From Halorarum halophilum (GTDB taxonomy: Archaea; Halobacteriota; Halobacteria; Halobacteriales; Haloferacaceae): a DNA stretch of 64,000 bases. Both the position numbers and the translations under genes were made by a program. Below the pieces are notes generated by a model. It was not told the DNA's origin and made no database searches. It saw nothing but the letters and a program-made list of their open reading frames with translations. Below, in pieces: positions 4,626-6,351 of this stretch. The DNA lies in contig NZ_CP058529.1 of NCBI RefSeq assembly GCF_013401515.1, positions 806,001 through 870,000 on the forward strand, given 5' to 3'. How positions within the stretch are numbered: position 1 is the first letter of the stretch; every line of letters starts with the position of its first letter.

Positions 4626-5123
4626 AACGACCGACGGGGGAATCCCGGGCGGTGAAACATCGGTTTGCGGTACGGCCCCATTCCCCTGAGTCCGTCCGGT
4701 ACGCAGGTGATTGTGGGAAACGGGGACGCGTCGCGTCGGATTCCACCGGGACGGAAATCTGGAAACAGTAGGGCGACGTTGTCGAGCGGAAGGGTTCGCC
4801 CTCGCCGATCGCGGTCCCGTCCCGAGCTACGCGTTCGCCGGAGACGGTCGACTCACGACCCCAAATCCGTCGTCGGTCTCCGGGTGCGAGGGTCGGCGAA
4901 TCGAGTCGGAGCAGGCGACGCGAGCGAGTAACGCGGCCGTACCTTCTCCGACATCTGGCGGCCCGATTCCCGGCGACCGGCTACGACACCTATAACAAAT
5001 GCGGCTGGCCGGGGAGCGTTCACTTGCCACCCGAAACCGGCGGACGGCGGTCCGACACGGCTGGCCGTCCGTCTCCGATTCGGTGGTGGATCGATACACC
5101 AGATCGGCACGGAGGAACACACG
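4626..5123. other. Non-coding stretch with promoter for the PRC-barrel operon
   Basis: Roughly 500 bases without a credible gene. Short open frames on both strands have Arg/Ser-rich translations and no haloarchaeal codon pattern. The only element I can point to is CTATAAC at about 4990-4996, a TATA-like box that would start transcription near 5020 and leave a leader of about 100 bases before the PRC-barrel gene. Confidence 0.5.
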
Positions 5124-5369
5124 ATGTCAGAGAGAGCACTCACGGAAGACGACGAGGGGAAGCGCGTGGTCAACGCGAACGGCGACGAGATCGGCATGGT
5201 CTCCGACGTCCGTGGCGGCACGGCGTACGTCGACCCGGACCCCGGAATCACGGACACCATCACGTCGAAGCTCGGATGGAGCGACAGGGACGAGGACGAC
5301 TACCCGCTCGACCGATCCTCTATCGGGATGATCTCCGACGACGAGATCAGACTGAAGGAGGACCTGTAA
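5124..5369 (+). CDS. PRC-barrel domain protein
   Basis: An 81-residue single-domain protein that looks like a PRC-barrel: GKRVVNANGDEIGMVSDV is the typical first beta-hairpin, followed by acidic loops and a strand before EIRLKEDL. PRC-barrels serve as protein- or RNA-binding modules; the partner here is unknown. A GGAGGA sequence about ten bases before the ATG shows Shine-Dalgarno-led initiation on a leadered transcript, unlike most neighbours. Only one base separates its stop from the GTG of the next frame, and a second GGAGG lies inside its last codons, so the two are almost certainly translated together. Confidence 0.8.
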   Translation: MSERALTEDDEGKRVVNANGDEIGMVSDVRGGTAYVDPDPGITDTITSKLGWSDRDEDDYPLDRSSIGMISDDEIRLKEDL

Positions 5370-5370
5370 C

Positions 5371-5595
5371 GTGTCCCAGCGGACACCTCGAACGGGGACC
5401 GGAATCGGCGGATCGGGCGGGGAGACGGTGGAGTACGGCACCGGAGTCCAGCAGGGTTCCGGAAGCGGTCCACCTACTGGTCAGCAGTATCCCCAGCAAG
5501 GCGGTCAGCAGCAGTATCAACCAAGCAGTCAGCAGGCTGCCGGGAGTAGTGGGCAGCAGCAGTACCAGTCTCCGGGCCAGCAGTCGAGCCTCTAG
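5371..5595 (+). CDS. Gln-rich repeat N-terminus, cut off by an in-frame TAG
   Basis: Starts with GTG preceded by GGAGG nine bases upstream, inside the end of the PRC-barrel gene. It encodes 74 residues: a Thr/Gly-rich leader followed by octapeptides of the type GGQQQYQP. Translation stops at TAG 5593-5595, but the same frame continues without another stop through seven more octapeptides into the cysteine-rich protein whose ATG is at 5755. I read this as the N-terminal part of one interrupted gene spanning 5371-6162, not as an independent gene. The TAG sits between Leu and Phe codons where the repeat favours CAG, so a single C-to-T change would explain it. Confidence 0.65.
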   Translation: MSQRTPRTGTGIGGSGGETVEYGTGVQQGSGSGPPTGQQYPQQGGQQQYQPSSQQAAGSSGQQQYQSPGQQSSL

Positions 5596-5766
5596 TTCGG
5601 CGGCCAGCAGGGCCTCGAGTCCGGTAGCCAGCAAGGTGTCCAGCCCGGCGGTCAGCAGGGAATCCAGGCCGGCGGCCAACAGCAGGTCCAGCCGGGGAGT
5701 CAACAGCAGTTCCAGCCAAGCGGCCAACAGCAGACCCAGATCGGTGGTCAGGGCATGACCCAGCCC
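5500..5766 (+). repeat. Tandem 24-bp repeats encoding Gln-rich octapeptides
   Basis: About eleven degenerate 24-base units, each encoding a variant of (G/S)GQQ-x-x-Q-(P/A/S), run through the end of the 5371 frame, across the TAG at 5593 and up to the second ATG. One unit, the one holding the TAG, is nine codons long. Such low-complexity tracts are prone to slippage and are probably a disordered, extended linker in the protein. Confidence 0.85.
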
Positions 5767-6162
5767 CCAGCGAGCGAGTTCGAGGCGTCGCTGACGAGCG
5801 ACATGCGACTCGCGCTGCACGACTTCGTCCAGGCGGCGACGGTCTGCGAGTGGTGTGCGGACCGCTGCCTCATGGAATGGCCGGAGATGGCGGAGTGCAT
5901 CCGACTCTGCCGGGACGTCGCCGACCTCGCCGTCGAGAACGTACAGTTCATGGCGCGCGACTCGCCGTTCGGTCCGGAACTCGCGGAGACGTTCGCGATC
6001 GCGGCCGAGGAGTGTGCGAACGAGTGCGCCCGCCACGCCCACTCGCACTGCCAGGAGTGCGCGAGCGTGCTCGATCGAGCGGTGGAGTCGACCTGGCGGA
6101 TGCTGGAGTCCATCGAGCAGCAGGGGGTCGTCGGGGCCCAGCAGCAGACCCAGCAGTACTGA
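5755..6162 (+). CDS. Four-helix cysteine-rich protein (DUF326/copper-storage-like)
   Basis: A 135-residue frame with four amphipathic helices carrying regularly spaced cysteines: CEWCADRC, then CIRLC, then ECANEC and the pair CQEC. This pattern matches the DUF326/Csp four-helix bundle family, members of which bind Cu(I) inside the bundle; metal binding here is inferred. The frame is continuous with the upstream Gln-rich repeat apart from one TAG, and the first residues after ATG 5755 are the last repeat unit, so the annotated start is probably internal to the ancestral gene. Only a weak GGTGG precedes this ATG. The C-terminus is again Gln-rich (QQQTQQY). Expression from the internal start or by readthrough is open. 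Confidence 0.75.
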   Translation: MTQPPASEFEASLTSDMRLALHDFVQAATVCEWCADRCLMEWPEMAECIRLCRDVADLAVENVQFMARDSPFGPELAETFAIAAEECANECARHAHSHCQECASVLDRAVESTWRMLESIEQQGVVGAQQQTQQY

Positions 6163-6351
6163 GCCGCCCTCCAACCGACGCCATTCTTTCGCCGGCGGGC
6201 CCGGACCGCCGTCCTCGAGGAGTGTTCCGTTCGGAGTCGTGCCGCCGGTGACGTCGCCACCACGCCTGCTCCGCGCGCCCCTGGACGGTTCTCGGAGCCC
6301 GGGAATCGCTGTTCCGTTATATGCCGTTCCCCGGCCACAGTCTACCTGTAG

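Follow-up and report, generated by a model that had tools for sequence, protein, structure and literature searches.

The window, a 64,000-nt stretch of the Halorarum halophilum genome, carries a pair of adjoining genes on its forward strand. The first (5124–5369; ATG 5124, TAA 5367–5369) encodes an 81-aa PRC-barrel-like protein, assigned from its orthologues in congeners and from a weak Pfam PRC match that lies below the cut-off, with none above it. The second (5371–6162) starts at GTG 5371, one base past the stop codon of the PRC gene and with a GGAGG motif 9 nt upstream, and its frame runs to TGA 6160–6162 uninterrupted save for a TAG at 5593–5595, the only internal stop in 263 residues if the TAG is itself counted as a residue. 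Beyond the TAG, 188 codons follow without a further stop or frameshift. The original prediction had recognised the GTG start, the coupling to the PRC gene, the Gln-rich repeat, the four-helix cysteine domain and the single TAG, and each of these was borne out.

The Gln-rich array (5476–5766) comprises 12 units, and tandem repeats of 24 and 48 bp were detected in it. Eleven of the units are octapeptides of the type GGQQxxQx, as had been counted before; the twelfth, overlooked in that count, is a nonapeptide (PGQQSSL*F) and is the unit that bears the TAG. The stop occupies a consensus Gln position, filled by Gln in 9 of the 11 other units (eight times as CAG, once as CAA), in agreement with the earlier suggestion that a CAG would fit there. 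Among the linker codons one step away from TAG, CAG is by far the commonest (34 of 43). The earliest in-frame ATG, GTG or TTG past the TAG is ATG 5755, already inside the last octapeptide of the array, and the segment from there to the end of the gene (5755–6162) corresponds to a predicted four-helix domain with nine cysteines and a short Gln-rich tail.

Homology covers both halves of the frame, and 5371–6162 is therefore not a chance open frame: the profile match extends over all 249 model positions (E=1e-130, with the gene's own sequence included in the model), and the intact genes of two congeners span the same length. Open +1 and antisense frames are common in GC-rich repeats, and we rejected the +1 ORF at 5024–5758 and the antisense ORF at 5347–6174 as repeat-driven frames without support. 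When 60 related genomes were searched, both congeners (G001 and G002) proved to have orthologues of full length, with the same start and no internal stops. Their first codons read ATG-TCC-CAG and ATG-TCA-CAA, compared with GTG-TCC-CAG here, and their identity to the window gene is 54–57% overall and 76–81% in the domain. Both lie directly behind orthologues of the PRC gene (72–79% identical), in a neighbourhood that is partly common to both congeners and includes an upstream regulator and, downstream, a gene of 93 aa and an amidohydrolase. Since two congeners hold uninterrupted, same-start orthologues adjoining the PRC gene, we regard the Csp3-like gene as real. A related layout was seen in Haloarcula (L098, L110 and L113), where a PRC-barrel gene 54–55% identical to ours has a stand-alone Csp-like gene nearby in the opposite orientation, so that the PRC–Csp association recurs, in another arrangement.

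The TAG was absent from all relatives examined. Among 170 genomes of the family searched by profile, the window locus was the only linker with a stop, and the linker-bearing relatives without interruption include L005–L008, L011, L028, L040–L042 and L070. Apparent internal stops in other relatives were discounted, those checked sitting upstream of the start or at the ends of stand-alone genes. The plasmid collection yielded matches to the domain or to the PRC protein only, with no orthologue of the full gene. A comparison of CAG with TAG in relatives, proposed alongside the original prediction, could be made in part: both available congeners are uninterrupted, but neither offers a CAG at the exact position, because their linkers, though similar in composition, do not align with ours residue by residue.

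Pfam gave no match above its cut-offs for the domain. A profile built from the three orthologues nonetheless matched BsCsp3 (5fig) with E=1.7e-9 and further cytosolic copper storage proteins with E=1e-4. The domain (5755–6162) is predicted as a helix bundle with a mean pLDDT of 89.6, and the best PDB matches of the model are Csp3 structures (6wkt: E=3.5e-5, TM 0.92 by target length, rmsd 1.3). Sequence and predicted structure thus both point to a four-helix bundle homologous to the Csp3s (BsCsp3 5fig/6wkt, SlCcsp 6ei0, MtCsp3 5arn), with which the domain also has in common the Cys and His residues kept around the helix 3–4 region. It differs from them in its Gln-rich N-terminal linker, its short Gln-rich tail, the premature TAG and the number of its cysteines: characterised Csp3s have 16–19 (PMC10155185), whereas nine are present here and in both congeners, and all nine that the congeners have in common are retained in the window gene. 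The six lost cysteines map close to where helix 1 begins, to the first half of helix 3 and to later helix 4; the order of the helices suggests that all of them lie at the same end of the bundle, where the Gln-rich linker is attached. The earlier description as copper-storage-like therefore holds for sequence and fold, but the gene keeps only nine of the usual ~15 cysteines. As judged from sequence and model, the label of copper storage protein fits the fold and the ancestry but is unproven as to function, and we file the gene as Csp3-like by fold, not as a Csp3 member by function.

A tree computed from 109 domains sets the Gln-linker proteins apart, on one side of a branch supported at 100/100; the alignment has few columns and some branches are long, so relations within the clade are unsure. 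Besides the window gene, the clade includes the ten uninterrupted linker-bearing loci listed above. Gln-linker relatives have 4–9 cysteines, compared with 13–17 in stand-alone haloarchaeal members, which also lack the Gln linker and fall outside the clade. Two such stand-alone paralogues, annotated as 'four-helix bundle copper-binding protein' (L002 and L003), are present in the same genome; they are intact, have 15 cysteines, and their domain is homologous and 50–51% identical to that of the window gene. Storage may no longer be the role of the proteins in the Gln-linker clade. The genome also has a fourth Csp-like copy (L004; G000 C1:514694-515125), which looks decayed, the start of its domain missing and several of its cysteines replaced.

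Changes private to the window gene give some indication of how the domain has fared. We counted seven private amino-acid changes in it, compared with 8 and 11 on the congener branches, and 15 of its 25 private nucleotide changes fall at third positions. The window branch shows no excess of domain changes, so either the stop arose not long ago or the domain remains in use, and by this pattern the domain appears to have been under ordinary constraint for nearly all its history. One change stands out: the loop between helices 1 and 2 has a Trp in place of a near-invariant Gly (found in 66 of the 68 relatives that have a residue at this position), which could reflect some relaxation. Pairwise dN/dS does not fix the date of the TAG, because synonymous distances are large and methods disagree.

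Because every intact relative is without the TAG, an ordinary recent mutation or a base-call error is most likely, in preference to a novel reading of the genetic code, and between these two we judge the TAG to be probably a private, recent nonsense mutation in a real gene. If the base is right, the gene carries an inactivating change that is absent from its intact orthologues in G001 and G002, as is expected of a pseudogene. A paper on Haloquadratum (PMC3119063) reports broken transposase genes only and carries no weight in this argument. The main rival, which we consider unlikely, is an intact gene in which sequencing or assembly went wrong at the TAG. A single wrong substitution would explain everything, given that both congeners are intact, that the rest of the gene is unbroken and that the domain is well conserved; moreover, the called base creates a CTAG, a tetranucleotide depleted in the window (12 found compared with 42 expected, the one at TAG 5593 being among the 12). 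Against an error speak the apparent quality of the assembly (4 contigs, 99.85% complete) and the unbroken state of the conserved genes nearby; in modern assemblies, isolated wrong substitutions are also less frequent than indels.

For the preferred reading, a recent nonsense mutation, we propose the following course. The second gene after the PRC-barrel gene would be a genuine one encoding a Gln-linker Csp3-like four-helix protein, and it would recently have gained its nonsense codon, most likely when a C-to-T change struck one of its many CAG codons. Translation begun at GTG 5371 would stop after 74 codons, so that the full-length protein would not be made, and the four-helix domain would then be either lost or made alone from ATG 5755 as a 135-aa protein.

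Such an internal restart, one of the options named in the original prediction, has a candidate site (5743–5757). The 16S tail of this genome contains GGATCACCTCCT, and the strong SD-like GGUGGUC before ATG 5755 pairs with it over 7 bp at −11.9 kcal/mol, a strength reached by 1.9% of sampled sites in the window; the register of the pairing is similar to the one at the authentic starts 5124 and 5371. The predicted product begins (M)TQPPASEFEASLT and, at 135 aa, is about as long as the stand-alone proteins, many of them 114–135 aa. Conservation of ATG 5755 does not extend to the congeners, and the site consists of repeat sequence; for these reasons the SD-like match may be a coincidence; still, the four-helix domain may be made from it. 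A stronger version of this idea is that the split is stable, with the TAG tolerated or even favoured, the domain made alone from ATG 5755 and the N-terminal Gln-rich peptide a dispensable leader. The pairing at ATG 5755, the match of its product to stand-alone members and the apparent constraint on the domain would all suit it. We nevertheless think it improbable: the arrangement is seen in no relative, the ATG is not conserved, and the stop lies 160 nt upstream of it, too far for a simple termination-coupled restart. The intact 15-Cys paralogues L002 and L003 weigh in the same direction, since their presence means that the domain may be redundant.

The remaining option of the original prediction, readthrough, found no support, in contrast to fresh nonsense mutation, restart and base-call error, all of which we retain. 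An Rfam search of the whole genome returned 70 tRNA hits, and neither these nor the ARAGORN calls at the same places included a CUA anticodon. Two hits that ARAGORN missed or misread were checked by eye and rejected as CUA tRNAs: C1:2351562 reads as a tRNA-Arg(UCU) with an intron, and the loop at C1:2444212 has no CTA. The latter gene (C1:2444212-2444309; L161:1609-1712, minus strand; tRNA-Val(AAC) by ARAGORN) is odd in its own right, with a long anticodon loop and a long variable region, and is possibly a decayed tRNA. A pattern search for CTA loops found nothing that folds as a suppressor tRNA, the match at C1:2969663 not being a tRNA by ARAGORN. The only match to the PylS model TIGR02367 scored 22 bits against a cut-off of 178, and we rejected it because the model also gives sub-cut-off matches in 12 of 14 control genomes.

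What the locus has in common with pyrrolysine recoding in methanogens is thus an in-frame UAG in an archaeal gene; it differs in that the genome yielded neither a PylS above cut-off nor a CUA tRNA, that the gene does not encode a methylamine methyltransferase, and that the UAG is not conserved among the orthologues, as a codon maintained for readthrough would be. Selenocysteine and pyrrolysine are the only demonstrated cases of stop-codon readthrough listed in a review of archaeal recoding (PMC8211752). With the TAG private and both CUA tRNA and PylS missing from the searches, maintained readthrough is unsupported. Readthrough of the TAG frequent enough to be useful, giving full-length protein, accordingly strikes us as very improbable. 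In its favour, the frame beyond the TAG is open and rich in Gln, tRNA-Gln(CUG) could conceivably read UAG as a near-cognate codon, and extra tRNA-Gln genes are found on contig C4 of the assembly. Low-level natural misreading of UAG is likewise conceivable. The idea that the amber is partly read as Gln by a near-cognate tRNA-Gln, possibly aided by the extra tRNA-Gln genes of this co-assembled, apparently viral contig, so that both stand-alone and Gln-linked forms are made, we hold to be more remote still.

Contig C4 of G000 (148,857 bp), itself a more informative object than the TAG, resembles a large tailed virus of haloarchaea in its gene content. It has genes for a baseplate wedge protein, a family B DNA polymerase, Cdc6 and a primase, and the best known relatives of the polymerase, at 33% identity, belong to Halorubrum tailed viruses. 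Its tRNA array holds 31 tRNA genes in 13 kb (C4:46225-59106), and a megablast of this region against the phage collection gave no match. CTAG does not occur in bases 1–80000 of C4 (L151–L154), compared with about 56 expected.

The TAG itself matters little, whether it is an error or a nonsense change private to this accessory gene, although, if the base is real, the strain would be a natural truncation mutant in which the role of the Gln-rich extension could be studied. More informative is the well-supported haloarchaeal clade to which the gene belongs, a group of Gln-linker, Cys-poor proteins of Csp3 fold, three members of which (the window gene and those of the two congeners) lie directly behind a PRC-barrel gene. 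It is a testable example of how a copper-storage fold may have shifted to another role.
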